Source: Selenobaculum gibii (GTDB lineage: Bacteria; Bacillota; Negativicutes; ICN-92133). From it: DNA of 64,000 nucleotides. The notes under the pieces were generated by a model that saw only the letters and a list, made by a program, of their open reading frames with translations, was not told where the DNA came from and made no database searches. Every line of letters starts with the position of its first letter. Position 1 is the stretch's first letter. The DNA lies in contig NZ_CP120678.1 in NCBI RefSeq assembly GCF_030273445.1, positions 2,519,501 through 2,583,500 on the forward strand. The letters run 5' to 3'. Made by a program: the position numbers and the translations under genes. Below, one piece after another: positions 15,170-49,071 of this stretch.

Positions 15170-16035
15170 TTAAAATTCTAATACTGTAATATTAACATCA
15201 GCAAAATTTACTCTTTCATTCGTACAATTGACTAACGCTAATTTCTTCTGATGATTCCCCGTTTGCACAATTGCTGTACCCGCTAAAGTTACATAATCTT
15301 TACAACATCCCATCGTCTCTGTACTCATACCTGGATATATCCTATCATCTACTAAAAATTTTACTGCAATATCCTTAGAACATCCATGGCTGCAAATCGT
15401 AGCAGTAATATTACAATTAATTAAATATGATTTATGGGCCGCCAAATGAATAATCGGTTGCCCTTCCGTATGCTGAATAGATGTACCTCTTTTTACCACA
15501 TTGTTTTCTAATGGTACTAACTCACGGGCTTCTACAGAAATGCACTCTAAGCTATTGGCAAATAAATAATCATGCTCACAATCTTTACCTGTAGGCCCTG
15601 TGGATCCGGTAGCTCCGGTGGCTCCGGTAGCTCCTGTGGCTCCTGTTGCTCCTTTTGCTCCGGTTGCACCTGTTGCTCCTGTAGCACCTGTTGCTCCTGT
15701 TGCTCCTTTTGCTCCGGTTGCCCCTGTTGCACCTGTTGCTCCTGTAGCACCTGTTGCTCCTGTAGCACCTGTTGCTCCTGTAGCACCTGTTGCTCCTGTT
15801 GCTCCGGTTGCTCCTGAGGCTCCTGTAGCTCCTGTAGCACCTGTTGCTCCTGTAGCTCCTGTGGCACCAGTGGCTCCTGTAGCTCCTGAGGCTCCTGTTG
15901 CACCGGTGGCTCCTGTTGCTCCTGTAGCTCCTGAGGCTCCTGTAGCACCTGTAGCTCCTGAGGCACCTGTTGCTCCTGTAGCTCCTGAGGCACCTGTTGC
16001 TCCTGTTGCTCCTGTTGCACCGGTGGCTCCTGTAG
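15170..16035 (-). pseudogene. C-terminal fragment of a collagen-like GXY surface protein, cut off by the prophage
   Basis: The minus strand reads about 148 residues of Gly-Ala-Thr/Ser triplets, then a 138-residue Cys-containing C-terminal domain (starting KDCEHDYLF, ending NITVLEF) that may be a jelly-roll like those capping BclA-type filaments. There is no proper start: the open frame continues upstream only through six codons made of the target duplication and phage DNA, beginning with TTG at 16048 and without a ribosome site. The nearest ATG (16070) is in another frame. Joined to the fragment at 47023-49071 the frame is continuous, so this is the severed 3' part of that gene. Confidence 0.88.
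16031..16035. repeat. Prophage target-site duplication, left copy (TGTAG)
   Basis: TGTAG here and at 47023-47027 are the only bases shared at the two junctions. Five base pairs is the duplication made by Mu-type transposition. Confidence 0.88.
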
Positions 16036-16058
16036 TATAAGCGCGCAAATAGTTCCGG
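16036..16058 (+). repeat. Left terminal inverted repeat of the prophage
   Basis: Starts TATAAGCGCGCAAATAGTT. It matches the inverted right end at 15 of 23 positions. Confidence 0.7.
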
Positions 16059-16108
16059 AAAATTTCTCATTTGGTTTTAAAAAAAATTTTTAAACTTTTA
16101 TATTTTAG

Positions 16109-16154
16109 AAAACCCATTTTAAAAGGTCTTAGAAACCTCTTTAAAATGGGTTTT
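16109..16154 (-). terminator. Terminator at the end of the phage late operon
   Basis: Stem AAAACCCATTTTAAA / TTTAAAATGGGTTTT (15 bp) with an inner GGT/ACC pairing, just past the last late gene. It probably keeps late transcripts out of the host fragment. Confidence 0.75.
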
Positions 16155-16158
16155 AATA

Positions 16159-16281
16159 TTATTTTTTCTCTTGCGAATCTTCTGTTGTTTCTGCTTTGTA
16201 GTCAATGCATTTCTCATTCTTGCAAACATTGTCTACGAGTTTGTGTGCGCAAAAACTACACCGTTTCGGTACTTGCAACAT
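16159..16281 (-). CDS. 40-residue zinc-ribbon-like phage protein
   Basis: A short gene reading MLQVPKRCSFCAHK and then VCKNEKC: a CxxC...CxxxxC pattern that could bind zinc. AAGGAGGAG lies seven bases before the ATG, inside the end of the preceding gene, which it overlaps by 26 bases. It is the last gene of the late operon. The role is unknown. Confidence 0.65.
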   Translation of the reverse strand: MLQVPKRCSFCAHKLVDNVCKNEKCIDYKAETTEDSQEKK

Positions 16282-16648
16282 TCTCAATCTCCTCCTTTTC
16301 AGTTTGATAGGATGCTTGTAACTCTGCAAAATCATTTCGTATATCGGCGATAAGTGCTATATCATTGCGTAGTTGTGCGATGTTCAATGATTTTTGCAAT
16401 TCGGCTACTGCTGTTTGGTAGTCGGATTCTAACTTTGCTAGTTGTTGCTGCTTTTGGTGTTCTGCCTGCTGTGCTTTGTACTCGGCTGATTGAATGAGTG
16501 CGTTATAATCGGATTGCAGGTATAATTTTCCGTCGTACATGATTGGTTCTGTCTTGGTCTGACCTGTCCATTCATATTTTTTCGCTAGCTTTGCATTGTT
16601 GGTGTATCTGCCGATTGTGCCGTCAGACAACCTTTCACAATAAAACAT
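16256..16648 (-). CDS. Coiled-coil protein next to the tail fibre (possible fibre assembly protein)
   Basis: 130 residues. The N-terminal half (MFYCERLSDGTIGRYTNNAKLAKKY) is followed by a charged, Gln-rich coiled coil from about residue 50 onwards (YKAQQAEHQKQQQLAKLESD). It begins one base after the fibre gene stop, with AAGGGG upstream. In Mu the fibre gene is followed by an assembly protein; that role here rests on position only. Confidence 0.6.
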   Translation of the reverse strand: MFYCERLSDGTIGRYTNNAKLAKKYEWTGQTKTEPIMYDGKLYLQSDYNALIQSAEYKAQQAEHQKQQQLAKLESDYQTAVAELQKSLNIAQLRNDIALIADIRNDFAELQASYQTEKEEIENVASTETV

Positions 16649-16649
16649 T

Positions 16650-17888
16650 TTATATTTCCCCTTCCGCGTAAATAAATTTAATAGTTAATCCTGTATAAAC
16701 GGGGTCATGACTAATTGTGACAACATCGTTTTTTAAAACAGGTATATATGTGCTAGCATCAGAAGATGTGTGGTAGTAATTAGACATACTTCCTAATTTG
16801 CTACTACTAATAGAAACAAACCTATTTTGAGTAGTTGCACCCGTATTCGTTGCAATTTTTGCGCACACATACCCATTTGCAGGAGCCGTATAGGTAGTTG
16901 TTGCGCCTGCATCTACAATAGTTTCAAACGTTGATGACGGCATACTCATACTAGCTATGATTTTTTTGCCTGCTGACGTAATATTTGATAAGTCAGTAGC
17001 TGCTTTCGTAACTAAATCCGCTGCTAGCTGTGCCATATCAAGATTGCCCACGTTTGAATTTGTACCGAATGCTTGGACTACCCAAAGGCGACATATTGAC
17101 TGCGGTTGTACGGTTGTTGATTTTCCGTAGATGGCGTTTGATAGTGATGCATCAAAGTTGATTTTTTGTGCATAATTGTAGCTCCCTGTACCCACATTAC
17201 CACGGGTACCAGTTGTAACTACATCGGAGAATGCCCCTTCTGTTGCATTCGTCATGAAATTGGATGCCGTGCCAGTAATATTCGGCAAACCAGCTTCAAG
17301 CACAGTACCTACTTCATCAACACTACTTGCACCACGCACCCACGTAGTCATGAGTGGCACCCTAAAATAAGTATCATCCACATCTGCATAGAACGGTACT
17401 TCACGACCGCCGCTTGCAGTAGATATTGCTTGCCATTCTGTTTCGGTTTTTATCAGCGACGGATGGGTTTGTACCCATTTCCATAAGTCTTCAAATGTTG
17501 ATTTGGGATATTTGCCACCTAAAAGAGGTAATTGACCTGGCTGTAGTTCGGTATATGGAATTGTATATTCAAATCCGACTGGAAGTCCTGCTTTTTTCGT
17601 TGCTTCTGTAATTGCCGTTCGAATATCTTCGTGTGAATCTGAATCTGTGTTGTGTTTATTAAATGCATTTTGATGTGCATATTCATCCTGATTATGATTT
17701 TCAACAGTATCCATTTTTGAAATTTCTTCTGCCAACTTTTCTATTTTCAACTTCAAAAATTTAGTTCTATTAGCTAATTCTTTATGCGGTCTATTATCAA
17801 CACCATCCGCGCCACCCATGACTGGATCATCTTCTTCAAGCTGATAAATTCCTTCAATCCACTCATTTACTTCAGCTAAATTTGCCAT
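16650..17888 (-). CDS. Phage tail fibre protein
   Basis: 412 residues. The N-terminal segment (EWIEGIYQLEEDDPVMGGADGVDNRPHKEL) is a common tail-fibre start that docks to the baseplate. A short coiled coil follows, then a collar-like region (PVGFEYTIPY...GQLPLLGGKYPKSTFEDLW and FRVPLMTTWVRG) and a variable C-terminal tip. It determines host range as the Mu gpS counterpart. AGGAGG precedes the ATG. Confidence 0.85.
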   Translation of the reverse strand: MANLAEVNEWIEGIYQLEEDDPVMGGADGVDNRPHKELANRTKFLKLKIEKLAEEISKMDTVENHNQDEYAHQNAFNKHNTDSDSHEDIRTAITEATKKAGLPVGFEYTIPYTELQPGQLPLLGGKYPKSTFEDLWKWVQTHPSLIKTETEWQAISTASGGREVPFYADVDDTYFRVPLMTTWVRGASSVDEVGTVLEAGLPNITGTASNFMTNATEGAFSDVVTTGTRGNVGTGSYNYAQKINFDASLSNAIYGKSTTVQPQSICRLWVVQAFGTNSNVGNLDMAQLAADLVTKAATDLSNITSAGKKIIASMSMPSSTFETIVDAGATTTYTAPANGYVCAKIATNTGATTQNRFVSISSSKLGSMSNYYHTSSDASTYIPVLKNDVVTISHDPVYTGLTIKFIYAEGEI

Positions 17889-17901
17889 TTAAAAACCTCC
17901 T

Positions 17902-18603
17902 TTATGTACCTTGTACTTTTAAATTTACTTTACCATTTGCAATATCATAATAAGGTTGCAATGAAATACGTTTCGGATCATGTTGAATCTCTCCACTATA
18001 TCGCTTTAACCCATTATGCTTAAACTCAAAAGATTTATATTCAAGAATCAAATTTCTTGGTTTTGCATGACCAGCTTTAGATTTCATAATAACATCAATT
18101 AATATCATAAAATCTACTGGCGCAAACTGTCTTCCTGCTTCAAGCGATATCGTAATGTCAAATTCAGCCCAATGTGTATTTGTACCAGCATGACGACATA
18201 CTCCGTTATATCTTTTTCTTCCATCATGAAAAGCTCTTTCAACAATAACTTCATAAATAACTGTATCTGGATAACCGATTTTGCTAAGTGTATTCTTTAC
18301 ACCCGGATTCGTGCCACCTTCTAAATAAGTTATATATGCACTTTGTACCCTTCGCCGATAATACTTATTTTGTTCTTCTGGATACCGTGAAATACCACGA
18401 TCATTCCCATGTAAATCAATTGCCTTATCGTTGCAGGTTGCAACAATCCTATTTCGTCTAATTTGAAATATTGCTATTTTAATACCATCTAATATAGAAC
18501 CTAACATATTAGTCCACAACTCTACATCAGAAACTTGTCCGCTTTGATTAATTTTAAAAGGGCGATTAATCAGTTTATATAAATATTCACTAAAATTACT
18601 CAT
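17902..18603 (-). CDS. Baseplate/tail protein (Mu gp48 position)
   Basis: 233 residues. It lies between the gpJ-like baseplate protein and the fibre, where Mu encodes gp48, and connects baseplate to fibre in contractile tails. The N-terminus (YKLINRPFKINQSGQVSDVELWTNMLGSIL) and C-terminal beta-rich part are consistent with this, but I see no unique motif. ATG overlaps the preceding stop (ATGA). Confidence 0.7.
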   Translation of the reverse strand: MSNFSEYLYKLINRPFKINQSGQVSDVELWTNMLGSILDGIKIAIFQIRRNRIVATCNDKAIDLHGNDRGISRYPEEQNKYYRRRVQSAYITYLEGGTNPGVKNTLSKIGYPDTVIYEVIVERAFHDGRKRYNGVCRHAGTNTHWAEFDITISLEAGRQFAPVDFMILIDVIMKSKAGHAKPRNLILEYKSFEFKHNGLKRYSGEIQHDPKRISLQPYYDIANGKVNLKVQGT

Positions 18604-20161: not shown

Positions 20162-20172
20162 AACGCTTCCTC

Positions 20173-25349: not shown

Positions 25350-25787
25350 TTAATAATCACAAGCTTTTAATCCGTCATACTCAATCGGATCAAGTATAAT
25401 CCCAGAGAATTCCGTTGCTATTCCCTTGTCACCCTGTTTTGCCGAATTTTTTCTTTCCGTTATTTTTACACTTGGAAGAACATCTGTTAATGTACGTTCA
25501 TCTTCATTTGCATAACTGACTACTATTGGGAAAGGTTTATGCCGATAAAATGCCGGATAAAGTTTCATTGCATCGTTAAATTTCTTTGCTTCTTCAAGAA
25601 GTAATGTAAACTTAACTTCCGCAGAATAATTTCCTTCTGAATATCCTATAGGCACTGATCCTTTTCCATATTCGGCATTTGTTTCTTTTTTATCCGAATA
25701 CTCAATATCTTGAATGCCAATTAAAACCCCATGCGGTAAAGTAATCGTAATATCTTCCCAAGAGTACGCTTTTCCATTAATTGACAT
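25350..25787 (-). CDS. Tail tube protein (Mu gpM)
   Basis: 145 residues following the sheath gene, with the beta-rich tube fold signature at the start (GKAYSWEDITITLPHG) and YGKGSVPIGYSEGNYSAEVKFTL. It polymerises into the inner tube of the contractile tail. Overlaps the sheath stop by one base. Confidence 0.85.
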   Translation of the reverse strand: MSINGKAYSWEDITITLPHGVLIGIQDIEYSDKKETNAEYGKGSVPIGYSEGNYSAEVKFTLLLEEAKKFNDAMKLYPAFYRHKPFPIVVSYANEDERTLTDVLPSVKITERKNSAKQGDKGIATEFSGIILDPIEYDGLKACDY

Positions 25788-27196
25788 TACTCTGTCCCTC
25801 CTGTTAAAAACGGATTTACTAATCCAATTTCAATGTCAATATTACGCATGATTCCAATCGGTTGTACGCCAATTTTCACCCTAATTCTCGAAGTTGCTAA
25901 AATATCTTGTCCCGCTGGAATAGTAACAGACCCATCCGTTATTTCCTTTGCACCTTTCATAATTGATAACGGTTGATTTAAATGCGCTTGCAGGGCTTTT
26001 ATCCCCTCATCACTTGCCTCATAATTTTTAAACTTTAACCCGGCAGTGCGGACAAGTTTACAGGCTTTATCCATTACACGGCGATATTCACCATATTGAT
26101 AATCACTAACAGCTTCCGCCATTAACCGAAACTCCGTAATATAAAAACCATTGAGCCCTTCGTACCGTCTCGCTGTTATATATCTTGCTGTATCTAGTGC
26201 TTCAATATGACCGTCATTGATACCTGACGGAAGCAAGCTAACTACACCAGGCAAACTTCCGAGTATAACTTTACCCGCAGATTCTTGTACTTTTAAAGTG
26301 CTAATGCGCCCTGCAATAACCCCCGCCATATTTCTTTCAACAATATTTCCTGTCAAAGAATCCGTCAGTTTCGCAAATGCACTGCAAACTCCAACCCGAT
26401 CACTTGCAAAAGTTGATGATTCATTCACTCGTTTAGTCATCCACTCATTAATATCTTTTTCACTGGAGCTTTTAGCTTCAGCTAAAAAGTAAATATATCT
26501 AAATTTTGTTTCTGCTTCTAAAGCTCTCGTAGCTAAAGCAACCCATAAAGATTTTTCTGATTCACCACAAATATGTATACCTTCATAAGTCAAATTAGTA
26601 TCTAGCAAGATGTCTATTGCCTCATTGATAGATGCAATACTTGCTGTTGGTGCTTCTGTTGTAAAACTATACTTGTCATTGGCGATAAATGAATTTTCTA
26701 CGTCTTCATTTCCGGCACTAAAAGCCAAAACTAACCCTGTCCCACTTAATTCATAGATTCCTGTAACCGGAACGGTAATCCGTCTTGAATATGAATTACC
26801 ATTATCTGTTGAATATTGAAATGCTGCACTATTTAAAGTGCCTGTATCAGTAACTAAGATAATTACCTGATACGCATCTAACGGTTTTCCGCTTACTGTG
26901 ATATTTCCAGTTCCTGATTTCACTGATTTAATTGCAGAGAAAGTGCCATCAATTGTTGCTGCTGCTCTTACCGCATAGATTGTTTCTGCGCCTCCCATTA
27001 AGCTATCCGCAATTGCATTAGAAAGCGGGCCAGTCCCAATTGTACCTTTTATTTGGTCTTTATCCGTAAAAGACATAATCTGATTTTCTTTTCCCAGACT
27101 ACTTACTCCAACTTTGCAAATAATGCCTGTACCAGTACCAGGCTGAATACCTAGCCCACCATTGATTATATTGATATTTACATTTGAAAGAGCCAT
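25787..27196 (-). CDS. Tail sheath protein (Mu gpL)
   Basis: 469 residues. The N-terminus (NINIINGGLGIQPGTGTGIICKVG) and the C-terminal domain (TARYITARRYEGLNGFYITEFRLMAEAVSDYQYGEYRRVMDKACKLV) match Mu-type contractile sheath proteins. It proves a myovirus-type tail. Confidence 0.92.
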   Translation of the reverse strand: MALSNVNINIINGGLGIQPGTGTGIICKVGVSSLGKENQIMSFTDKDQIKGTIGTGPLSNAIADSLMGGAETIYAVRAAATIDGTFSAIKSVKSGTGNITVSGKPLDAYQVIILVTDTGTLNSAAFQYSTDNGNSYSRRITVPVTGIYELSGTGLVLAFSAGNEDVENSFIANDKYSFTTEAPTASIASINEAIDILLDTNLTYEGIHICGESEKSLWVALATRALEAETKFRYIYFLAEAKSSSEKDINEWMTKRVNESSTFASDRVGVCSAFAKLTDSLTGNIVERNMAGVIAGRISTLKVQESAGKVILGSLPGVVSLLPSGINDGHIEALDTARYITARRYEGLNGFYITEFRLMAEAVSDYQYGEYRRVMDKACKLVRTAGLKFKNYEASDEGIKALQAHLNQPLSIMKGAKEITDGSVTIPAGQDILATSRIRVKIGVQPIGIMRNIDIEIGLVNPFLTGGTE

Positions 27197-28837: not shown

Positions 28838-29752
28838 CTATGCACTTGCACCAGTAGAGCCAAAGGCAAGCTGCCAAAGTCCATATCCACCATTACCTCG
28901 TGCATCAACGCCATACATATATTCCTTACGCATAAATACATTTTCACTATGAGGGTCATTAATCGTAATAAATTCTGGTTTTTTACGTTCCTGATACACG
29001 AGTGGCTTAATTGCTCTTGACGTATCAAGTAAAAACCATGCTGTAGGCGATGATGCAAGTTCAGGCACAACTAAAAGCTCTGCACTATCTTTATAGATGT
29101 TTTCTACCAATACATCATTTTCGCCAACTTTATCCACAAAATTACTTGCTTTTAAAATTTTTCTGCCCTTTTCTTCAAGTTGTGGTGGAATAACTAAAAG
29201 ATTCGGTACAATACCAAGTGGTTTCTTCGCACCATCCGTCAAAGACATCATTTTCATTCTTGCAGCAGCATAACTTTCAAATGACAATTTTTGTGTTCCT
29301 AAGTTGGATTGTTTCAATCTGCCATCATCTGAATGATTACTATCGAAATAAGGTTTACCATCATAGCACTTTTCCATAAAACCTTTTTGAAGTAACGTAA
29401 AAATAATATCATCCGGTAAAATCGCTGCACTTCTGCCCATTTCTTCAATCATAGGAGCATAAATACCATAAGTATCATCTTCGATATCGTTTCTGGAGAT
29501 TGATACCGTTGCTTCAAAATCTTTATTTTTCACTGTATAGCCATGTGCCAATAACTTATTAATCGTTCTGTCTCCAACCCACTCCCGCATTCGCGGAAAA
29601 CTGCCAAGCCATGCATAAGTTTCTTCCTTTGCCGAAGATGGTACACTCATTGCAATCTGTTGCCATTTAGGTTGTGACCCTTGAAAAGCCTTATTAAAAA
29701 GCACCCGAAAACTTGTATAAATTCCTGCTAACGCATTTGAACTAACTAACAT
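28838..29752 (-). CDS. Major head protein (Mu gpT-like)
   Basis: 304 residues. The N-terminus (ALAGIYTSFRVLFNKAFQG) and YAWLGSFPRMREWVGDRTI...NDIEDDTYGIYAPMIEEMGRSAA are distinctive of gpT. It forms the capsid shell together with the scaffold and protease encoded upstream. Confidence 0.93.
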   Translation of the reverse strand: MLVSSNALAGIYTSFRVLFNKAFQGSQPKWQQIAMSVPSSAKEETYAWLGSFPRMREWVGDRTINKLLAHGYTVKNKDFEATVSISRNDIEDDTYGIYAPMIEEMGRSAAILPDDIIFTLLQKGFMEKCYDGKPYFDSNHSDDGRLKQSNLGTQKLSFESYAAARMKMMSLTDGAKKPLGIVPNLLVIPPQLEEKGRKILKASNFVDKVGENDVLVENIYKDSAELLVVPELASSPTAWFLLDTSRAIKPLVYQERKKPEFITINDPHSENVFMRKEYMYGVDARGNGGYGLWQLAFGSTGASA

Positions 29753-31298: not shown

Positions 31299-32021
31299 TT
31301 ATAAACGATTTTTCTTTTCTTGATATGCAGCTTGCAATTTATCATCATATTTACTCATATCAAGCTTCCATCCTTTTGCTGGATTTGTATCAAATCCGAT
31401 ATCTGGAGTTATACTTACCACTTGTCCATCCGTAGTAGAACGGACATCAGGCGCATCGCCTGTTTCAACTTTTATTCCATCCCGCTCCACTTCGCGCATG
31501 GAAGCTGTACGAACACTACACCTGCATCGATACCCATTAGGCGGATACCAGGTTTCCCAAAAAGGATCGTCAAATCTTCTTGCTACACCATGCAACGCCC
31601 TATGTGCCGGACGTGTTCGACTGTCATTGACCGCACTATATATCCAGATTGGTCGATTCTTCGTAATCAATGGCTTCATCTGTTGCTTATATCTGCCTGC
31701 ATTATAAGCAGTTTGAATATTTGTTCTAAAAATGTTATCTGTTCTATATGCCGACAATCCTGTATATCCTTTATCTTCAATATACGTATTGATGTTATTT
31801 TGAAACTCTTTTAACGTGCCACCGTTTTCAATTGTTTCTAAAAGTTCATCATAGATATTTTGAATAATGTCTAAGGTTGCAACATTAGTAACGGTGAACG
31901 CTCGCGTTTTCATTTCATCCTTTAACCACGCCCAAGCTTTTGGCTCCATTACAATCTTTTTCTTGAAAAATTCAATAGCTTCTTCAAAACTCAATGGCTC
32001 TAAATCAACTTGCTTATCCAT
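31299..32021 (-). CDS. Phage head morphogenesis protein (Mu gpF-like)
   Basis: 240 residues from the ATG at 32021. Core motif FRTNIQTAYNAGRYKQ, then SRTRPAHRALHGVARRFDDPFWETWYPPNGYRCRCSV, typical of the gpF/SPP1 gp7 minor head family, with its His/Cys metal-like cluster. The start overlaps the portal gene end; an in-frame ATG at 32039 is the alternative. Confidence 0.9.
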   Translation of the reverse strand: MDKQVDLEPLSFEEAIEFFKKKIVMEPKAWAWLKDEMKTRAFTVTNVATLDIIQNIYDELLETIENGGTLKEFQNNINTYIEDKGYTGLSAYRTDNIFRTNIQTAYNAGRYKQQMKPLITKNRPIWIYSAVNDSRTRPAHRALHGVARRFDDPFWETWYPPNGYRCRCSVRTASMREVERDGIKVETGDAPDVRSTTDGQVVSITPDIGFDTNPAKGWKLDMSKYDDKLQAAYQEKKNRL

Positions 32022-33555
32022 CAGCAGACCACCGACCATACAAATCAGCAACAAACATTGCTTTTGCAGTTAAATCTTCTAACCTTTGAGTATCAATCTC
32101 TGGATAAACATTGAGAAGTTTTTCTTTCAATGCTTCTAAGTTTTCAGCTTCAGCAACTACTTTTAAAATTGGCGCAATCATCGTCTCAATGATTGGTATA
32201 CCCTCTTTAAATGCACAATCCGCTAAATGCTCAATACTTTGTTGACTAGGTGTAAATCTATTTGACTGAGCTTTTAGTGCTAACGTGTTAGATGAAACTG
32301 CTGGCTGAGCCTGTACCTGTGGTTTTAAGATTTCATCACCATCTTCTGGTTTTGGGATCCCAAATCGTTCATAAACATGCTGTGTAGCAATCGGCAACCC
32401 CATATTAGAAAGTGCTTGATAGACTTTTGATGATTTTTCCTGGTCTTCTGGTTTCTCACAAGCAAATTTAAACACCGGCAATCTTTTTAAATACGCTTGA
32501 CCATAATTGTAAAGAACCATTGGGCGAATTAATTGACTTTGAATTCTTTTAGAAAGTGCTTTACAATCTGCTTCTAAAATATCTTGTCGAACAGTTTCAT
32601 GCACTTTACTTGATGCCAAGCTTCCTGATGCAGCAACCTCACTCGTTTGGGTTTGTCCTAAAATCGCCTTACTAATTTCAGCATTGCAAAACTTTGCTAG
32701 TGATTCATAAATATCACCGTCTGTTTTCATTGCTTGTACAAATTCAATTTTTGTACTTTCAGGAATAATAGCAGCCGCATCACTGCCAATTTGAAGAATT
32801 GCATTAATCAACGTTTCTTTTTCATCTTCAGATGCACTCGGTTCATATTTACCAATTCTAATTGGCATTCCATACACTTCGGAAAAAGCAACCCAGTCCT
32901 TGATAGTATAGTTCTTGAACAGATACATCCACACACAAGTTCTAAAAACTCCAGCCCTTGAATTATAGCCACTACGCGCTTTATAGCGATGAACAATAAA
33001 TTTATTTTCTGGCAGTTCTAGTCCTGGATACATATTTATATCAGTAATAAGCCTCAAATTATCTAAATCGTCATAACGAAACTTCTTTTGATGTCTCCAT
33101 TTAAGCTCATTTGGAACTACTTGCCCATTTTCAATCCCCCACATAATTTCAGTGACTGCGAATCCTTTGCCAATTGCATCTAATAATGTCATTAATGCAT
33201 CATCAAAATCTTCAAGATTGTATAATGCATCACCAATAAACTTTGCAATCTCCTGATCAAGCGCATCATCGGAATAAGAAATCACTTCATAATCACAACC
33301 AAGCACCGCATTTTTACGCGTCCCCATGACGCTCATGAGGTGCAGGTCTTTTTCCTCAATCTCCTCAAAAAGCTCCATCTGACGATAAATATCTCCGCTA
33401 TCAGCTTCCTTAAGAATACGTGCCAATTTTTCAGGAGTAAGCCCATTACTTGGATATGTACTATATTTATCCCTTATGCTCGCAACTGCAATTTCATCTT
33501 TTATCGGACGCATACCACTTGTTTTAATTGGTTTGCCAAAACTATCTAAAATCAA
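32014..33555 (-). CDS. Portal protein (Mu gp29-like, DUF935 type)
   Basis: 513 residues. The start (LDSFGKPIKTSGMRPIKDEIA) and the body (MGTRKNAVLGCDYEVIS, GKGFAVTEIMW, GQTQTSEVAASGSLASSKVHETVRQDILEAD) are hallmarks of the Mu portal family. It forms the DNA entry ring of the head. It begins one base after the terminase stop. Confidence 0.92.
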   Translation of the reverse strand: MILDSFGKPIKTSGMRPIKDEIAVASIRDKYSTYPSNGLTPEKLARILKEADSGDIYRQMELFEEIEEKDLHLMSVMGTRKNAVLGCDYEVISYSDDALDQEIAKFIGDALYNLEDFDDALMTLLDAIGKGFAVTEIMWGIENGQVVPNELKWRHQKKFRYDDLDNLRLITDINMYPGLELPENKFIVHRYKARSGYNSRAGVFRTCVWMYLFKNYTIKDWVAFSEVYGMPIRIGKYEPSASEDEKETLINAILQIGSDAAAIIPESTKIEFVQAMKTDGDIYESLAKFCNAEISKAILGQTQTSEVAASGSLASSKVHETVRQDILEADCKALSKRIQSQLIRPMVLYNYGQAYLKRLPVFKFACEKPEDQEKSSKVYQALSNMGLPIATQHVYERFGIPKPEDGDEILKPQVQAQPAVSSNTLALKAQSNRFTPSQQSIEHLADCAFKEGIPIIETMIAPILKVVAEAENLEALKEKLLNVYPEIDTQRLEDLTAKAMFVADLYGRWSADG

Positions 33556-34863
33556 TTAATATGCCCCCTTTCGCTTAAATCGTTTTTTAGCAACACTTTT
33601 ATACTCAACCGGTACAAATTCTGCCTGTCCTGCATGAAGTCCTAAAGCTGCTGCCCAAAACCTATCCGCATGACCGTTTTCGTTGCGATCAGCATCATAA
33701 CGAATATTACCCGCTGCCGTAACAAGTTTCTTTACACTATGCAAATCGTTTCGGATTGCTTTTACAACTGGAATTCTTGCTTGCTTATCCTCAAAAATCT
33801 GCTTCATATTAACGGCCATTTGTGCCTTTGATGCTGAGGTAAATGTTACCTGCTCTACTCTTGATTTTCCAAAATCAAGCTGTGCATCTTCTGCCAAGTT
33901 TGCTCCAATCCCCGTACAATCAATACATGCACGACGAAGTTTGAGCAAACGTAGATATTCATACAAAATCTTTTTCTGTGACCGAAATTTCATTTTTACT
34001 AACTCATGAACAGCTCTTGTATAAAACACATCACCAAGCTTCTCCCAAAGCCAGATTACTGATAAATCTTTTTTTCTCCCAATATCTAATCCTAAGAAAA
34101 GGTCTCCAAAAGGATTAAAAAACTCCGGTAAAATGATGGATGTTTCTTTTTCGCATTCACACCCTGCAATAAGTTCATAGGTAAGATAAGCACTTGCTTC
34201 ATCAAGAAATTCGCAACAATACTCTTGTAGCCAGTCATCTTCACTATCGCAACCTTCTCTAAGTTCCTCAATGTCGATTGGTAGCCCATCTGCAACTGCT
34301 TTATAAATATCTACTTCGTGCTTGCTCCAGCGGTTATCACCGCTCCATAGCTCGTAAAACTTTCCGCTTTTACCATTTGGCGTAGAGATTACACGAATTT
34401 TATACCCTCTTGTAATTGTCGGATAAAGTGCTGTCCAAATCTTACGGCTGTCTCTGTGAAAGGCAAATTCATCTAATACGACATTTCCTGAAAATCCTCT
34501 TGCTGTATCAGGATTTGCAGGAAGTCCAATGATTTTTGAACCATTTGGCAAATTAAGTTCCAGCATTTTATATGCACGATTATCATCAATCTGAAATTCA
34601 TCTTCGATAACCTCACATACATGTCCAATCGCCTTTGCGTGCATCTGTACCTTTTCCATGAGCTCCTTAGATTGCCGTTCACCACGGCTTAAAAGCACCC
34701 ATAAGGTTTTATGCTCAACTGCATCGAGTACAACCTCTAAAGCTACACCAAAAGAAAATCCCGTCTGCCTGCCCTTGTTTGCAATTTTGAAACGACTCTT
34801 ATCGCTGATCCACTCTTTTTGATACTGATAAAGCGGAACAAGACCACTAAGTTGTGATGCCAT
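33556..34863 (-). CDS. Terminase large subunit (Mu gp28-like)
   Basis: 435 residues. An ATPase half contains QTGFSFGVALE (Walker A-like), VVLDEFAFH (Walker B) and RVISTPNGKSGKFYELW. The nuclease half has LFLGLDIGRKKDLSVIWLWEK and CIDCTGIGANLAEDA with the acidic residues. It packages DNA by the headful mode after replicative transposition. AAGGA precedes the ATG. Confidence 0.92.
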   Translation of the reverse strand: MASQLSGLVPLYQYQKEWISDKSRFKIANKGRQTGFSFGVALEVVLDAVEHKTLWVLLSRGERQSKELMEKVQMHAKAIGHVCEVIEDEFQIDDNRAYKMLELNLPNGSKIIGLPANPDTARGFSGNVVLDEFAFHRDSRKIWTALYPTITRGYKIRVISTPNGKSGKFYELWSGDNRWSKHEVDIYKAVADGLPIDIEELREGCDSEDDWLQEYCCEFLDEASAYLTYELIAGCECEKETSIILPEFFNPFGDLFLGLDIGRKKDLSVIWLWEKLGDVFYTRAVHELVKMKFRSQKKILYEYLRLLKLRRACIDCTGIGANLAEDAQLDFGKSRVEQVTFTSASKAQMAVNMKQIFEDKQARIPVVKAIRNDLHSVKKLVTAAGNIRYDADRNENGHADRFWAAALGLHAGQAEFVPVEYKSVAKKRFKRKGAY

Positions 34864-37998: not shown

Positions 37999-38445
37999 CT
38001 ACAACGATTTTTTCTTTCTTGCAAGCATTGCTTTCAATCCTTCTATCACTTTGCTCGTCTCATCACGCGTTTGTGGCCACGGCTTTTTAATCACTCGTCT
38101 GCAAAAACCTTGCTGACGTTCAGGTTCTAACATTTCCATATCTATAAACAATTGATTGACCTTATTAAGTTGCGCTGGATAAGGAAGACCATTTGGATCA
38201 GCGTATAAAGGTTTATTTTTTTGATATACTCTTTTCGCTTTATTTTTAAAACCAATCTTTTCAAGGTAAGCCATGACACTTTTAAATCCATCCGCTGTAA
38301 GATTTTTAGCAGACTCTACGCCTCCATATAAATCTAGTACACTCCTGTAATCCATATCATCTAACCCAAGCTGACTTTTAGCAATATGTAGTAAAGCTAA
38401 CTGCTTTGACGTGATTTTTTCTTTTGAATTTTTTAATGCCCCCAT
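37999..38445 (-). CDS. GemA-like regulatory protein (Mu gp16, DUF1018 type)
   Basis: 148 residues. KQLALLHIAKSQLGLDDMDYRSVL and VESAKNLTADGFKSVMAYLEKIGF are the core of the family. Mu GemA modulates host gene expression and DNA supercoiling. It is directly before mor. Confidence 0.88.
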   Translation of the reverse strand: MGALKNSKEKITSKQLALLHIAKSQLGLDDMDYRSVLDLYGGVESAKNLTADGFKSVMAYLEKIGFKNKAKRVYQKNKPLYADPNGLPYPAQLNKVNQLFIDMEMLEPERQQGFCRRVIKKPWPQTRDETSKVIEGLKAMLARKKKSL

Positions 38446-40078: not shown

Positions 40079-40183
40079 CTACTTGAATAGCAACCTTTTC
40101 ACCCAACCAATAAATCCTTTTCGCCTAGCTCCCATATGCAAATTTTCTATACTATAGCCGTTTTTCGTAAGTTTCTTCATCAT
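40079..40183 (-). CDS. 34-residue basic micro-ORF coupled to the B ATPase
   Basis: Reads MMKKLTKNGYSIENLHMGAR and ends WVKRLLFK. Its ATG overlaps the ATPase stop (ATGATGA), so translation could be coupled. Strongly basic. Only position and coupling support it. Confidence 0.45.
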   Translation of the reverse strand: MMKKLTKNGYSIENLHMGARRKGFIGWVKRLLFK

Positions 40184-41115
40184 ACGCTGATAATCACTTT
40201 CTTAGCTGAACGTATATGCTCAATTGCTATAGCTTCCTTACATTGATTTGCAATTGTCCAAGCAAAAAGAAATAATTTGACCATGATTCTAAATGCCCCA
40301 ATAGAATTTGCCACCTTGTAAAGCTCGTTTAAACAATCTTCGTCAAGCTCAACTCCATTTTGCAATACAATTGCCTTTACATCTTCCATTTTTACCTTCA
40401 TATCTAACGCAATTCGTACTGCACGACTGAAAAATTGACCAGTGATTGTTTTATTTCGTTCTGTAATACTTTCCATAATTGCAGGATTTCCAACTAAAAC
40501 AAGTGGACATTTCGTTGCATCATAGATACGTCTAAGCGTTTCAAGTCCATCTAAGCGTAAAAAATGTGCTTCATCAATGAGAATCGGTCTATTTGTATTT
40601 TTAAGAATAGCAATAATGTTCTTTTCAAGGCTTTTATTACGACCTTCAGCTTTTTTATTGAGAGCTTCCAATATTTCTTCCATCACATCACGACCACTGC
40701 GAATATTAGGACTTGCAGTGAAAAATAAGCTATTAGGATTTTCCGCAACCCATTTATTTATCGTCACTGTTTTTCCAATGCCTGGCGCACCGTAGATTAC
40801 AATTACATCATTTCTATCATTTGCATATTGAAGACCAAACCACATTTCTTTCATCACTGCCGTCACTACGCGTTCAGGTTCTTTTACCGAAAACACTGCT
40901 TCTTTACGTGTTTCCTCAATTCCAAGCACTGCCATAATCTTTTTCGCTACATTTTCAACGCGTCCATGGTATTTATTTGCTAAGAAACTAGATAATGAAC
41001 CGCCTGAAATTCCTGCCATCTTAGCAAATTTCTCCTGAGAAATTTCTTTATGCATATCTAAATAAGCATTCACTTTTTCTATGATGATAGAAATATCTAA
41101 CTCTTGATTTTCCAT
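40180..41115 (-). CDS. Transposition ATPase, MuB-like
   Basis: 311 residues. An N-terminal helix-turn-helix (SQEKFAKMAGISGGSLSSFLANKY) precedes the AAA+ domain with Walker A (VIYGAPGIGKTVTI) and Walker B (RPILIDEAHFL). It selects target DNA and activates the transposase, and gives target immunity in Mu. It starts one base after the transposase stop. Confidence 0.93.
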   Translation of the reverse strand: MENQELDISIIIEKVNAYLDMHKEISQEKFAKMAGISGGSLSSFLANKYHGRVENVAKKIMAVLGIEETRKEAVFSVKEPERVVTAVMKEMWFGLQYANDRNDVIVIYGAPGIGKTVTINKWVAENPNSLFFTASPNIRSGRDVMEEILEALNKKAEGRNKSLEKNIIAILKNTNRPILIDEAHFLRLDGLETLRRIYDATKCPLVLVGNPAIMESITERNKTITGQFFSRAVRIALDMKVKMEDVKAIVLQNGVELDEDCLNELYKVANSIGAFRIMVKLFLFAWTIANQCKEAIAIEHIRSAKKVIISV

Positions 41116-41116: not shown

Positions 41117-43081
41117 CTAAAAATCCCCTTTCCGCTTTTCTATTTTTGCCTTTGCCATAATCTCAAATGGATTTATATCATCCGTTCCTGTCGCTTTCAT
41201 TGCCCGAACTGCCTCTCTACCTGCTTGCGGTAATGGAACCATTTCAACAACTTTATTTGGTGTAACATCAGCAGCAATATTGCCATATAGCTTGTAAAGT
41301 TCAGTAATATCAGCCGGTGCAAGCGGTTTTACTTTCTTTGTCGCTTGATAAGACGGATGATTTAACACTGCTTTTTTCTCAATTGCTTTACGTGCCATTT
41401 CCGCGCCCAATACTTCTTTATCTGCATTAATCGCAGCTATCGCCTCAATTCTATTTGCTTCACCCAAATATTCATCCTTCGTTGTATATAACCAAATCTT
41501 ACTTAAATCTTCCTCACGATACCGCACGTAAACAGCTTGTCCTTTTTTGAGAATCGAATCTTTTAAGTAGTATTCACTACCTTTGAAGGCAACACCGTTA
41601 CGTCCAATCTTGAATGGATTCGTTGATTTCATGAAAAATAACCGCATTACACTTGGATCAGCTGTACGCATTGGAAGTCGCGTCCGCATAAAGGTTGCAT
41701 CTGGACATTCCCCTTCACGCCCTTTACCTTGCGAAACCTGTTTATTTAGTACGTTTTTCGCCCAATCATTAAAGATTTGCTTGAACTCATCCAAGCTAAC
41801 TCCGTATTTTTTCGGCTGTTTGAGTTTCTTTTCTAAATCGTCAGGACGCTCTTTTGCATTACGTCCGCAATAGGTCGGAAAAGGCTTGGAAAACCATTCG
41901 ACAACGTTTCTAAATTCACGTTCAACTACTTTCGCCCTTGCATTTTCAACTATGGCAAAATGCGTTTTTACTTTTAGTCGTTCCATGAGCGTTGCCGTTC
42001 GTTTCCCTTCTTCGATCAGCAATTCCTTATCTTCTTCGGTTAGCTTTTTCCCCCGATTGCCCCGGCCTGCAAATTTATGCGAACAATAATCACGTCCGTT
42101 ATCTATATAGATATCTCGTGGCAAGCCAATCGCTGGATCAAGTGCAGCATTTGCAAAAGCTGCAATAATTTCATCCGTGCATGGGGAAAGATTTACCGTC
42201 CAGCCAACTAGCTTCCGACTTCTCATATCCATCCAAGCCGTCAGCCAAGGTCTTGTCCATTTTGGCTTTTCAACTGAACCTGTATTAATAAATAAATCAA
42301 ACACATGATGATCACCGACAAAAACCTCACCTGCTGAAATGCTTTCATAGTCACGCTGCGTATATGCTTGGCTGTTATCATAGAAGTTCTTTTCTCCGAA
42401 GCGTTTGAGTCTGCGAACCGCTTCGGGAATATCCTGCTTTGCCATGCGTGCTACCGTCTTCAAAGAAGGAATCTCCCAGCTTTCTTTTTTCGCTTCAAGT
42501 TCAAGTAACCGATAACAAAAACCAATACTAGGTCTTGTTAGTTGTAGATACTGTCCGCAGAAAAAATCCCATGCGTTAGCATCTATTGCCCGTTGCTCTT
42601 TTCGCTTGCCGTAGCCTGTGAGTAGTCCCATCAAGCCATCTTTTTTATATTGACGACCCCAATTATACAGCGTTGATTTAGATATCACTTCATCTGGATG
42701 CGCTTCGTTCCACACCGTTACAAAGTTGTCCGTCAATACCGTTTTCTTACCAGCCACGGCGATATATGCTTCATATTGCTTTAGAATTTGATATCTACGA
42801 TTTGCTATATCTCGTTGCCACTGCGCCGCAGTATCATATTCGTTTGATACTACGCGTTCTGGTTCATCAATTAGCTTATTAGCTACCATATACTTAGTTT
42901 GTGCTTCAAGTTTCAAGCTAGATAGTGCTATTTTAGCTATTTGTCCGCTTTTTCCACCCCGTACCCCCTCAACATATTGAACATTTTCATATTTTCCTGA
43001 CGAAATATTCTTTTGAACAGCCCGCTCGCTTATCCCAAGTAATTCAGCAGTTTCAGCTGTATTTAAAAAGTATTCAGCCAT
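41117..43081 (-). CDS. Transposase A, MuA-like
   Basis: 654 residues, close to Mu A (663). The N-terminus is a winged helix (TAETAELLGISERAVQKNISSGKYENV), then further DNA-binding domains and the DDE core: Asp in EVFVGDHHVFDLF, Asp in DIYIDNGRDYCSHKF and Glu in KVVEREFRNVVEW. A Mu-type C-terminal beta-barrel follows. It carries out integration and replicative transposition. Confidence 0.95.
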   Translation of the reverse strand: MAEYFLNTAETAELLGISERAVQKNISSGKYENVQYVEGVRGGKSGQIAKIALSSLKLEAQTKYMVANKLIDEPERVVSNEYDTAAQWQRDIANRRYQILKQYEAYIAVAGKKTVLTDNFVTVWNEAHPDEVISKSTLYNWGRQYKKDGLMGLLTGYGKRKEQRAIDANAWDFFCGQYLQLTRPSIGFCYRLLELEAKKESWEIPSLKTVARMAKQDIPEAVRRLKRFGEKNFYDNSQAYTQRDYESISAGEVFVGDHHVFDLFINTGSVEKPKWTRPWLTAWMDMRSRKLVGWTVNLSPCTDEIIAAFANAALDPAIGLPRDIYIDNGRDYCSHKFAGRGNRGKKLTEEDKELLIEEGKRTATLMERLKVKTHFAIVENARAKVVEREFRNVVEWFSKPFPTYCGRNAKERPDDLEKKLKQPKKYGVSLDEFKQIFNDWAKNVLNKQVSQGKGREGECPDATFMRTRLPMRTADPSVMRLFFMKSTNPFKIGRNGVAFKGSEYYLKDSILKKGQAVYVRYREEDLSKIWLYTTKDEYLGEANRIEAIAAINADKEVLGAEMARKAIEKKAVLNHPSYQATKKVKPLAPADITELYKLYGNIAADVTPNKVVEMVPLPQAGREAVRAMKATGTDDINPFEIMAKAKIEKRKGDF

Positions 43082-43178: not shown

Positions 43179-43186
43179 GATTACTT

Positions 43187-43982: not shown

Positions 43983-44084
43983 ACTACCACCTTCTTATTA
44001 AAATTTTCTTTGCTATCCACTCTACTCCATCGAACTTTTTATATGCGTACTATTTTCTACCTATAATTATATTTGGAGAATAAA

Positions 44085-44744
44085 ATGAAAACAGAATCAA
44101 AACCTACAAAAATTAAACTTCCACCCGTCAGATTAGACGTTGAAACCTTGTTCAACATTGAAGAACTTGCAAATAAATACTACAAAAAAATAACATTCAA
44201 ATTAGAGAATACAACTCATACATATTCTTTTAACTCCATAACAGAGATAAACTCTATAAAAGACTATCGTTTTCACAACATGTATATCACTTTTGATGAA
44301 TATCCTCATCCAATATCAATTAATCTTTCTAATTTACATGGTGAAATTATCATCTCTACAGATTCACCCCAAGACTTAGGTACAGCTGCAAAATTGAAAG
44401 CATTATTCACCGATACTTCTTCAATATTTATAAAACTTCTTTATCACAATGAAAGTATAATTTTTATACCTCTACTTTTTGCTTGTTTGTCTTTAATTTC
44501 TTGTTATCTATTTTTTTCTACACAAACCATAATCTCTATTTCATCATTCGTATACTTACTAACTACGATGATTATCACTATAAAGACTGTAAAATTTCCC
44601 AATTATTCTATAATATATATTAGAAAAAAGCCTCTTACTTTTATGCAACTTATAAAAATAGAGAAGAAAACATTAATAATATATTTTATTTTTCCTATAG
44701 TAATTGCAGTACTTAGTTTTTTATTGGGCAAACTTTTTAAATAA
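44085..44744 (+). CDS. Cargo membrane protein of unknown function
   Basis: 219 residues from the ATG at 44085 (GGAG seven bases upstream). A soluble N-terminal part of about 125 residues is followed by three or four hydrophobic helices (SIIFIPLLFACLSLISCYLFF; IISISSFVYLLTTMIITI; TLIIYFIFPIVIAVLSFLL). It is oriented against the phage early genes. It is very AT-rich. The module position between repressor and ner suggests lysogenic cargo. Confidence 0.65.
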   Translation: MKTESKPTKIKLPPVRLDVETLFNIEELANKYYKKITFKLENTTHTYSFNSITEINSIKDYRFHNMYITFDEYPHPISINLSNLHGEIIISTDSPQDLGTAAKLKALFTDTSSIFIKLLYHNESIIFIPLLFACLSLISCYLFFSTQTIISISSFVYLLTTMIITIKTVKFPNYSIIYIRKKPLTFMQLIKIEKKTLIIYFIFPIVIAVLSFLLGKLFK

Positions 44745-44910: not shown

Positions 44911-45034
44911 ATGTATCACCTTTCCAAAACTTTAACTTACACTTCCATACATTCAACAACCCCCAATTTTTAAACCTACCGCCGACACAAATTTCACTCT
45001 AATTTTTTGCCCGTAGATGTAAAAATTCAGAAAG

Positions 45035-45733
45035 GTGCTGATTGTCATAGAATATATACAAGATAAAGAATTTTTTCATATCAGCGTACCAAAATTTTAT
45101 TCTCAATTTCCAGAATGGTCTCTTAATGAGACTCGATTTATTGGGAAAACTACTAATCCCTTTTTTTCTTATTATGATAAAACAAGCTATCAAGTTCTAG
45201 ACAAAACCAAGACTACTGCTTATCCATTTAATAAAATTGCAAATGTAATGAATGAAATTATATCCGGACGAACCCAAATACCACATGATTTACCGAACTT
45301 TTATCACTGCAATCCCAATCGCTGTTTTTCTGAACTTTACAGTTATTTCAAAGATTATCTACTCTTAACGAGGGAATGGATATATGAAGAAGTACGGAAA
45401 GAATCGTTTCCACATCTACCTTCAAGGCAAAAAGGCCTTTGGGTTATTCCTATAAACGAAAGTCTTAAAGCTTCCTTAACCTTCTGGGAAAAAAACCTAG
45501 TCTCTAATGAAAATGCTAAATTTTTAAAATTAAAATTAACTGGAAAATTACACTTAACTAGTGAAGAGTTTCTTTTAAGTGACTCACTATCTTTAGATCA
45601 ATTTCGACAAACTGCATTTAAATACTGGCTTGGTTGTAATAATCCTAAAAATCCAGAACAATTAGAATGTATTTTTGAAGGTTTTGCCTCTGTAACCCAT
45701 ATCTATGACTCCCTAGAAGAAATTAATTTTTAA
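45035..45733 (+). CDS. Soluble cargo protein of unknown function
   Basis: 232 residues. The order of motifs (KTTNPFFSYYDKTSYQ; LYSYFKDYLLLTREWIYEEVRKESFPHLPSRQKGLWV; EFLLSDSLSLDQFRQTAFKYWLG) is reminiscent of DUF2441-type proteins, which may have an ADP-ribosyltransferase-like fold; this is a tentative impression. The start is uncertain: GTG at 45035 or a downstream non-ATG codon after AAAGGTG. It lies in the cargo block beside the repressor. Confidence 0.65.
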   Translation: MLIVIEYIQDKEFFHISVPKFYSQFPEWSLNETRFIGKTTNPFFSYYDKTSYQVLDKTKTTAYPFNKIANVMNEIISGRTQIPHDLPNFYHCNPNRCFSELYSYFKDYLLLTREWIYEEVRKESFPHLPSRQKGLWVIPINESLKASLTFWEKNLVSNENAKFLKLKLTGKLHLTSEEFLLSDSLSLDQFRQTAFKYWLGCNNPKNPEQLECIFEGFASVTHIYDSLEEINF

Positions 45734-45743
45734 TATTAATTTC

Positions 45744-45905
45744 TTAAACACTATGATTATTGTTAGAAATATCTGTCCGTTTTAAAGCTTCTTGAAAAGA
45801 TATCGATGGTTTATTTTCCATCTCTACTATAACAGGCAGAATCTGTTTTATAACTTCCGCAGTAATCAACGATGCAATTTTTACAATTCTATTTTCTTCT
45901 ATCAC
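45744..45905 (-). CDS. Small phage protein near the repressor
   Basis: About 53 residues from GTG at 45905, preceded by GAAGGG. Sequence IEENRIVKIASLITAEVIKQILPVIVEMENKPSISFQEALKRTDI; helical, no recognised domain. It is the first gene downstream of the early promoter. A longer TTG start at 45944 has no ribosome site. Confidence 0.45.
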   Translation of the reverse strand: MIEENRIVKIASLITAEVIKQILPVIVEMENKPSISFQEALKRTDISNNNHSV

Positions 45906-46109
45906 ATTATCATCCCTTCGCCTATTATTTTGTGCTATATTCAATTTTCAGTAAGCCAACCCACTTCTCCACTCTGCCGACGCGTATTAAAAATTTTCCG
46001 TCCATTTGGACAAGCTTCAGTTATACAATTATTTTTTTCCCTTGCCCTGCACCGTTTCAAAGTTGGGCTTTATGGGAATACTTAACTTATATATTCAACT
46101 TACATTTTT

Positions 46110-46138
46110 ATTCTACTCTAATATATGAGTAAAGTCAA
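46110..46138 (-). promoter_or_regulatory. Phage early promoter
   Basis: Minus strand TTGACT (46138-46133), 17-bp spacer, TAGAAT (46115-46110), near consensus. It overlaps both operators, so the repressor would block it. Confidence 0.65.
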
Positions 46139-46153
46139 CTCTTTTATATGAGT
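46115..46153. promoter_or_regulatory. Two repressor operator-like dyads (ACTC-N8-GAGT)
   Basis: ACTCTAATATATGAGT at 46115-46130 and ACTCTTTTATATGAGT at 46138-46153: same arms, centres 23 bp apart (about two helical turns). They cover the early promoter and the region just upstream of the repressor start. Confidence 0.7.
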
Positions 46154-46165
46154 GAGGTGATTTAT

Positions 46166-46576
46166 TTGCAAATTACAAATGAAAATAAGATTATAATAGA
46201 TAGGATTCGTGATTTACGTATAAAAAACGGACTATCCCAAGCTAAATTTGCTCAATTAATTAATGTATCATCTGGCAATGTAGGTTCATGGGAAACATAT
46301 AAAACTCTCCCCGGTGCTATTGCTTTAAAAAACATTGCTCTAAAATTAGAGTGTTCGTTAGATTGGCTTATATTAGGCAATGAAGAAAAAAAACTTATTT
46401 TACCAGAACAAAAAAACGAGGTCATTTTCGACCCCGAGCTAAAGCGTATGATAGACATTTTAAAAGAATTAATGACAAATGAAAATCCACATATGAGAAG
46501 TTGGGCAATTATCCAATTTGAAAAAGCCTTCTCCGAAGTTTGTGCAACTTACGACGAAAAAAAACAACACGCTTAA
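46166..46576 (+). CDS. Phage repressor, XRE family
   Basis: 136 residues from TTG at 46166, chosen because GAGGTG is correctly spaced and the ATG at 46148 lies within an operator. The helix-turn-helix is RDLRIKNGLSQAKFAQLINVSSGNVGSWETYKTLPGAIALKNIALKLECSLDWLI. The C-terminal part is short, unlike autocleaving LexA-type repressors. It maintains lysogeny as Mu c does, divergent from the early genes. Confidence 0.87.
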   Translation: MQITNENKIIIDRIRDLRIKNGLSQAKFAQLINVSSGNVGSWETYKTLPGAIALKNIALKLECSLDWLILGNEEKKLILPEQKNEVIFDPELKRMIDILKELMTNENPHMRSWAIIQFEKAFSEVCATYDEKKQHA

Positions 46577-47022
46577 TGCTTTTTCTGTACAACAAAATAG
46601 ACAGACCCGCCCCGCCTATCTTCAATTAATTAAATAATATATTACATAAAAGTAAAAATAAAGTGGTTCGTCAATCAGTCTTGCTAAAAATGACTTTAAA
46701 TCCTTGTTCTGCCTAGCTTTATCCACATTTTATAAAAGTTCGTCAATAGGTTCGTCAATTGACTTATCGTGTGCGCATGTAGTGTACACGTTTTTTTATT
46801 TTAAAAGCCTTTGAAAGCAATTCCGAAGGGCATTTGAAGGTTTTGAAAACGACAACTTTTAAAAAGCCGAAATTATCCCCAAATGTTTTTCAAACGACTT
46901 TTTCCAAAACTAACTTGCTGAACTTATCCACACGAAAAAATCCCCATCAAGCTAGATAAAACATGATGTCTCGGGTTATCCCGTTTAATCCCTGTTTTTC
47001 CTAAACTAAATGGGGTGTTATA
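46577..47022. other. Non-coding phage end with GTTCGTCAAT repeats
   Basis: 446 bases without a gene between repressor and phage end. GTTCGTCAAT occurs at 46666-46675, 46738-46747 and 46750-46759. The last 23 bases form the right terminal repeat. Transposase end-binding sites are expected here. Confidence 0.5.
47000..47022 (-). repeat. Right terminal inverted repeat of the prophage
   Basis: Minus strand starts TATAACACCCCATTTAGTTT, matching the left end at 15 of 23 positions. Confidence 0.7.
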
Positions 47023-47027
47023 TGTAG
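47023..47027. repeat. Prophage target-site duplication, right copy (TGTAG)
   Basis: Second copy of the five bases at 16031-16035. It lies within the GXY-repeat coding sequence. Confidence 0.88.
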
Positions 47028-49071
47028 CTCCTGAGGCACCTGTTGCACCTGAGGCACCTGTTGCTCCTGTTGCTCCTGTTGCTCCTGTTGCTCCTGTTGC
47101 ACCGGTGGCTCCTGTAGCTCCTGAGGCACCTGTTGCACCTGAGGCACCTGTAGCACCTGAGGCTCCTGTAGCTCCTGTTGCACCTGTAGCTCCTGAGGCT
47201 CCTGTTGCACCTGTAGCTCCTGTTGCACCTGTAGCTCCTGAGGCACCTGTTGCTCCTGTTGCTCCTGTTGCACCGGTGGCTCCTGTTGCTCCTGTTGCTC
47301 CTACACCTGTAGCACCTGTTGCGCCTGTAGCTCCGGTAGCACCTGTTGCGCCTGTAGCTCCGGTAGCACCTGTTGCTCCTGTCGCACCTATACCTGTAGC
47401 GCCTGTAGCTCCGGTAGCACCTGTTGCGCCTGTAGCTCCGGTAGCACCTGTTGCGCCTGTAGCTCCGGTAGCACCTGTTGCGCCTGTAGCTCCGGTAGCA
47501 CCTGTTGCGCCTGTAGCTCCGGTAGCACCTGTTGCTCCTGTACCCGTTGCACCTGTTGCACCTGTTGCCCCTGTTGCGCCTGTCGGTCCAGTGGGGCAAA
47601 TTGTACAAATCGAGTTTATAACAATAGTATCAACTGAATTACTTACTGTCGTAATATTTCTAATATTTCCTTCTACATCTCTAAACTTATACTGGAGTGC
47701 TCCCGTATTTTCAATACTTGTTCCATTTTCGACATTATCATTGATTGTCGCCCGAAACTTAATTGTAACTGATTTATTCGCCTCAACATCGGCAATTTTA
47801 ACTCCAGATCCAATTATTCTTTCATCGGCCTGCAAATTATTAACGATCAGAGAATTTTTTTCAATTGTAAGATAGCTTGGAAGTTGATCTTTAAATTCTA
47901 CGTTTGTCAAAACTTGATTACTTGTGTTTTTAAAAGTAATTGTATATGTTAATACATCTCCTGGTTCGGCAACTACTTTGCTTACCTTTTTATCAATACT
48001 TATAACCGGGGTCCCTTCTAATTCATAAAGTCTTATATCATCAATTAAATAATCATTCCCATTCGCTGGTCCACCTTCACTAATAAAGCTTACTGTTAAG
48101 GATTTATGATCACCACTATTAAACATTGCTCCCACCTGCTTCCATGTTGGAATTTTCGTTGTACCTAAATCGTTATTTAATAACTGATCGAACAATGCAG
48201 TTGCTCCCTCTACCAATACACGTAATTGTGGTAACACCTGCCCCTGCCTTGAATCAACATTCATCACCCATGTTGAAAATACATAATCGGTATTTGGCCT
48301 AACATTAACATTTGCGGTAAATATATATTGCTTTGGATAACTTCCATTGACAATCATCATTCGCCCATTTTCATCCCCAGTAGTATGGTCAGCAACATTA
48401 AACCAGGTACGAAAATTTGTATTTGTTATTATATTAGCAATTGAATATTGCCCATCTGTCGGATACCCAGTTTGATAACGAACATAACTAAAGTTTGTTT
48501 GAAAATCATTATATGGAGGATTTAAAGTTGGTTGACTAGTTTGCACCGCTGTCCCATTTGCTAATGCCCCAAAGGATCCATTACTACCCGCTTTAATTAA
48601 ATTATCACCAATTGTTACATAATGATTTAAATCTAATTCAATATCCTGCGCAGGTGCATCGACAAATTGAATGTTTGTAACATTACTAAAAGCAACCGAT
48701 ACATAAACAGTATTTGGAGATAGAGAATTTACCCGATTCGCTTCACTTGGCGGCGATGTTATAGTTGCTATTGCAGGATCAGCTGGCGTAACTATAATCT
48801 TCTGCGCATTGCCCCAATCTCCACTGGTAGATATCGTTCCCATATAACTAGCAGCTTCTACCACACGGTACTTTCCTTGTGGTACAGAAGTAAATTTGAA
48901 TTTTCCCGAACTATCTGTTTTTACAACGATTCCCTTCCCCTCAAACGTACCGATGACAGTTTTAGTCCCCTCAACTTGCAATGCAACAGGTATATTTTTT
49001 ATTGGCTGATTTCCCGATAATTGACTGGGCTGACTATTGATGTTAAACACAATACTCCCTGATATATCCAT

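Follow-up and report, generated by a model that had tools for sequence, protein, structure and literature searches.

Mushuvirus mushu (Faecalibacterium phage FP_Mushu) has been shown to replicate by transposition; its host flanks vary, and the repeat is 5 bp long (PMC5883640, in the sections available to us). This phage and Bacillus phage BalMu-1, which holds the best-placed match for MuA within the phage collection (30.9% over 82%) as well as one for MuB, are the described systems closest to the element presented here, a Mu-like (Mushu-like) transposable prophage of Selenobaculum gibii. The element lies within a collagen-like gene in a stretch of 64,000 nucleotides, hereafter the window, which covers positions 2,519,501-2,583,500 of NZ_CP120678.1, the only contig of the 2,679,003 bp genome; the GC content is 35.8% for the window and 35.5% for the published genome (PMC10491768, in the part available). 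Based on the prophage ends, the target-site duplication, the one-gene origin of the flanks, the phage gene set and the unrelated target genes of relatives, we propose with considerable confidence that a Mushu-like phage inserted by Mu-type transposition, at a most likely arbitrary site, into the GXY stalk region of a gene for a collagen-like protein that is possibly associated with spores. We regard the locus as most likely an unexceptional case of gene disruption by a prophage, in which the gene hit is an uncommon one; two features of additional interest are the location of the prophage between repeats and its TA ends.

Mushu and the window phage share the order of regulator, transposase, transposition protein, terminases, portal, head, sheath, tape measure and baseplate genes, as well as a 5-bp repeat and a major head protein (28838-29752, minus strand) with a full-length identity of 48.8% between the two phages. 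In contrast to the TA ends of the window phage, Mushu has TG ends (at one end of its record, TG is preceded by an additional base). Mushu also carries a diversity-generating retroelement, whereas no reverse transcriptase is present among the 34 distinct window prophage proteins scanned against Pfam or PHROGs, some of which matched no family, or none of known function; several small open reading frames (ORFs) lie outside these scans. BalMu-1 differs in having TG at both ends and a Bacillus host.

Prophage boundaries and the interrupted gene

The prophage spans 30,987 bp (16036-47022), with the tail-gene end at 16036 and the repressor end at 47022, and is bordered by two copies of TGTAG (16031-16035 and 47023-47027), i.e. 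a target-site duplication of 5 bp, as in Mu-like transposable phages. Both ends start with 5'-TATAA, and the terminal 32-mers are identical at 19 of 32 positions, a score equalled or exceeded by 28 of 200,000 random pairs drawn from the phage. Four other end pairings, all within the GXY repeats, tie at 19 in the same scan; the chosen pair is preferred because the ends of two relatives have the same form. When the flanks are joined with one copy of TGTAG, the minus strand reads as an open frame of 969 residues, to which the 5' part contributes 683 and the 3' part 286. Our recomputation reproduced the coordinates, the duplication and the joined frame reported in a preliminary description of the stretch.

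The 5' part of the host gene (47028-49071, minus strand; 683 native residues counting the second copy of the duplication) comprises the N-terminal region, DUF11 and the start of the GXY stalk, and its frame reads on through 32 phage codons to a stop, giving a predicted truncated product of 715 residues (ORF 46924-49071). The 3' part (15170-16035, minus strand; 286 residues) comprises the remaining stalk and the C-terminal domain, and has no start in host DNA. As to the domains assigned in the preliminary description, DUF11 lies above the Pfam cut-off (37.7 vs 24.6 bits), while the Cna-B-like domain could be traced only to a SpaA match below threshold (20.3 vs 23.1 bits).

All ten collagen-family matches in the whole genome fall at three places, namely the two flanks and one other locus, which holds an intact frame of 501 residues with a DUF11-like region, a GXY stalk and a C-terminal domain in that order. 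The DUF11-like region of this paralogue is 28% identical to the 5' part over 142 columns, and its C-terminal domain is weakly similar to the 3' part (E 9e-06 when the two are compared directly and 2.8e-5 in the genome search; 23% over 111 residues). Near the intact, Thr-rich paralogue (locus L017), a frame resembling a glycosyltransferase by eye may fit stalk glycosylation. Judged from sequence, the two flanks very probably represent one original collagen-like gene, because both ends occur within a single protein, with the same domain order, in the intact paralogue, because the 5-bp duplication occurs together with phage-type ends, and because the collagen-family matches are limited to the flanks and one other locus. 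Alternatively, the prophage could separate two distinct collagen-like genes, in line with the two frames of the current ORF calls, the very appearance anticipated for naive annotation. We give this arrangement practically no credence, as the 5' frame terminates inside the phage, the 3' frame lacks a host start, the insertion is marked by the duplication and the paralogue unites both ends. The earlier proposal of a Mu-like prophage within a single collagen-like gene is therefore retained on the strength of the ends, the duplication, the phage gene set and the paralogue, and a likely annotation error is corrected in that two collagen-like genes become one broken gene. Among 200 genomes drawn from a larger group, neither part of the gene has a match in the 199 other genomes of the class, only the genome of the window itself being matched, and the C-terminal part has no match in viral contigs.

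The phage gene set includes a MuA-type DDE transposase of 654 residues with a Mu DNA-binding domain (41117-43081), which is the one MuA match in the host genome and whose D257, D327 and E387 align with what we take to be the catalytic residues of MuA. Next to it lies the gene for a MuB-type AAA+ ATPase, the transposition protein (40180-41115). A GemA family protein (37999-38445), the terminase large subunit (33556-34863), the portal protein (32014-33555), the sheath of a contractile tail (25787-27196) and a tail fibre-like protein near the phage end (16650-17888) are encoded on the same minus strand, and a repressor-type helix-turn-helix (HTH) regulator (46148-46576) on the plus strand. A protease, a tape measure and a baseplate are encoded as well. 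No broken key gene was seen in the prophage, which appears complete and is possibly capable of replication. The locus provides an example from a gut bacterium of a Mu-like prophage with defined boundaries.

Proposed stable disruption, with switching and repeat-mediated loss as less likely alternatives

We propose that the gene was lost in the following manner. A Mushu-like transposable phage would insert by Mu-type transposition within the GXY stalk, duplicating 5 bp in the process. The insertion would disable the gene, with the 5' half ending 32 phage codons past the junction, devoid of the C-terminal domain, and the 3' half left without a start of its own. Subsequent prophage replication would copy the phage elsewhere while the original junction stays in place, and loss of function would accordingly be stable.

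In the preliminary description, the frame-perfect insertion led to the suggestion that activity of the prophage would alternate a surface protein between a truncated and a whole form. Such a phage-driven switch would toggle the product through precise excision and re-insertion, and the exact in-frame rejoining of the flanks and the intact-looking transposase are compatible with it. In-frame rejoining is nonetheless automatic, because any insertion that duplicates its target site within an open frame leaves an empty site that reads through, and two near relatives display the same in unrelated regulator genes. The first (G026; MuA 46%) is a prophage of 37,645 bp with the duplication AGCAC that parts the receiver half of a response regulator from its HTH half, and the second (G010; MuA 44%) is a prophage of 33,652 bp with the duplication CTCGG that interrupts a TrmB-like regulator gene; in either case the target gene rejoins in frame. 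Rejoining in frame therefore says little in favour of a switch operated by the phage. The switch would also require frequent phage-driven precise excision, of which no indication emerged in this sequence-based analysis and against which the published behaviour of Mu argues: in the portion of PMC3562280 available to us, Mu insertions are described as 'extremely stable', reverting only rarely, and the original Mu junctions as intact late into lytic growth. Moreover, no site-specific recombinase is found among the 34 scanned prophage proteins, to which the small unscanned ORFs do not belong. Taken together, switching by the phage appears highly improbable, and stable disruption remains the preferred explanation.

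Two more distant prophages were delimited in addition. One (G058) measures 44,258 bp, is bordered by TAAAC and lies just upstream of a histidine kinase gene, and the other (G146) measures 39,454 bp, is bordered by TTTGA and lies in a short frame that resembles group II intron reverse transcriptases. Their end scan required starts of the form T[A/G]T; the pair chosen for G058 was the top one of 225, and that for G146 tied for the top of 269 and was chosen since its left end matches that of G058. The names of the target genes in all four relatives, which come from the class of the host, were assigned by eye from translations rather than by family search. The MuA search of genome contigs returned two distant loci, and for an IMG/VR relative with a MuA identity of 64% (L020) the contig begins inside the phage, so that it covers neither the ends nor the target. 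A preference for collagen genes as targets was considered and is unsupported, as one of the five prophages with ends set here, that of the window, lies in a GXY gene. GXY runs of at least 12 triplets are absent from 34 other loci, which are not independent (L003 overlaps or repeats L010, as do L004, L021 and L038 with L012), include many viral contigs that possibly lack host flanks, and do not comprise the G058 and G146 stretches. In the prophage of G026 (L018, G026:C8, about 695-3411), a reverse-transcriptase-like frame is located near a frame resembling formylglycine or C-type-lectin-like proteins by eye, as in diversity-generating retroelements.

Several points weigh against a chance insertion with a stable effect. 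The locus is seen in one host genome, none of the 100 relatives drawn is closer than the same class, and no empty allele was observed in this material. Target choice is judged from five sites and could be biased. Finally, phage activity is suggested by intact-looking genes only, with the small ORFs again outside the scans. We found no paper that combines an inserted Mu-like prophage with a collagen-like gene.

The position within a repetitive stalk raises a further alternative, in which homologous recombination between the flanking GXY repeats, driven by the host, excises the prophage and the gene that remains is open but encodes a shortened stalk, such that lysogens could regain a stalk-length variant. 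A GXY-coding repeat of 59 bp (15975-16033) has an exact copy at 47228-47286, and a pair of 43 bp is located at 15993-16035 and 47075-47117; these are the longest of ten exact repeat pairs of at least 25 bp between the two GXY arms, all ten of which are in register. Recombination computed at the 59-, 43- or 35-bp pair is predicted to remove the prophage and to keep the gene open at 882, 939 or 945 residues, respectively. Against this stand the 31 kb between the repeats and the inefficient recombination of such short repeats in many bacteria, and no deletion allele was observed. Curing of this kind is possible in principle and appears quite unlikely, leaving a lasting knockout as the favoured outcome.

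TA ends in a Mu-type clade

TG...CA ends are usual, while not universal, for Mu-like transposable phages, and the window phage departs from this pattern. In the window phage and the two near relatives, each of the six ends begins with TATA, the boundary in G026 being ambiguous by one base (window 16036-16065 and 46993-47022; L010 7619; L018 5263; L012 5392; L013 19043). TG ends are found in four other Mu-like phages, i.e. Mushu, BalMu-1, G058 and G146, the last two from the scan that allowed only T[A/G]T. Mushu and the relative G010 have GCGCGACACGA and TTTGAGAA in common at one pair of corresponding ends. In the transposase tree, the transposases of TA-ended phages form one supported group (100/99), which includes the IMG/VR contig of unseen ends; deeper forks are weaker, and the tree is rooted at its midpoint.

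A box-like motif, allowing up to two mismatches, occurs at position 17 of all six ends, at position 39 of the three tail-side ends and at positions 111, 113 and 132 of the repressor-side ends, with a small number of further matches. The uneven end sites of Mu resemble this layout.

TA at both ends, rather than TG-CA, has been described for transposable prophages of the WETA1 group in Leptospira (PMC8705779, in the part available). These differ from the window phage by a B3/Tn552-type transposase and a 6-bp duplication, as compared to a Mu-type transposase and 5 bp here. Because all six ends carry TA and a TA-TA exception has been published for Leptospira, we class the element as a Mu-like phage with variant ends. 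Our literature search for TA-TA ends in transposable prophages gave the Leptospira paper only, and an earlier mention in Toussaint 2013, on Mu-like phages of Firmicutes, is possible. Such ends in Mu-type phages represent a small testable point on the end requirements of the transposase. A broader scenario would combine both side points: host recombination would remove the repeat-flanked prophage in frame to generate stalk-length variants, with lysogeny acting as a semi-reversible lock on a spore-surface collagen, and the shift of the clade from TG-CA to TA-TA within the Mu-type (5-bp) group would represent a second origin of such ends. As a whole, we consider this combination unlikely.

Location of the protein and neighbouring features

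The collagen-like product was presumed to be a surface protein in the preliminary description, and a spore location is equally plausible. No signal peptide is evident by eye in the host protein, to which no signal-peptide tool was applied. The genome has a match to the SpoIVA ATPase (E 8.5e-121), which makes a role at the spore surface plausible; the word 'spore' occurs 0 times in the main text of the species description (PMC10491768), as far as that text was available.

The C-terminal domain has no Pfam match, and the sequence family search returned nothing for it. Its structural model is all-beta and of low confidence (mean pLDDT 57.7), and among 1570 structural matches a single one reaches E <= 0.001. 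The sugar-binding domain of EclA ranks first, superposing poorly (TM 0.38-0.40); numerous TNF- and C1q-like domains come next, and the Bacillus anthracis spore glycoprotein 3twi, presumably BclA, is found at rank 17. The host protein may resemble the BclA-like collagen proteins of the exosporium in having a GXY stalk followed by an all-beta domain with weak TNF/C1q-like matches in this low-confidence model; it differs from them by its large N-terminal region with DUF11. In BclA, the C-terminal domain nucleates the trimer. If the same applies here, the truncated 5' product should form no proper stalk.

Between the late genes of the phage and the 3' half of the host gene, a strong hairpin (16109-16154) folds better than all of 200 shuffled sequences and is possibly a terminator, though the terminator scan did not list it. 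Near the same 3' half, the promoter scan gave six consensus-level matches as compared to 1.8 expected, five of them on the plus strand and the host gene on the minus strand. Two ORFs on the plus strand, located between the early operon and the repressor gene (44073-44744 and 45035-45733), one without a Pfam or PHROGs match and one with DUF2441, are possible accessory genes. Beside the collagen-like gene (13823-14986), a single protein combines a FeeM/GNAT-type acyltransferase-like domain with a cNMP-binding domain below threshold.

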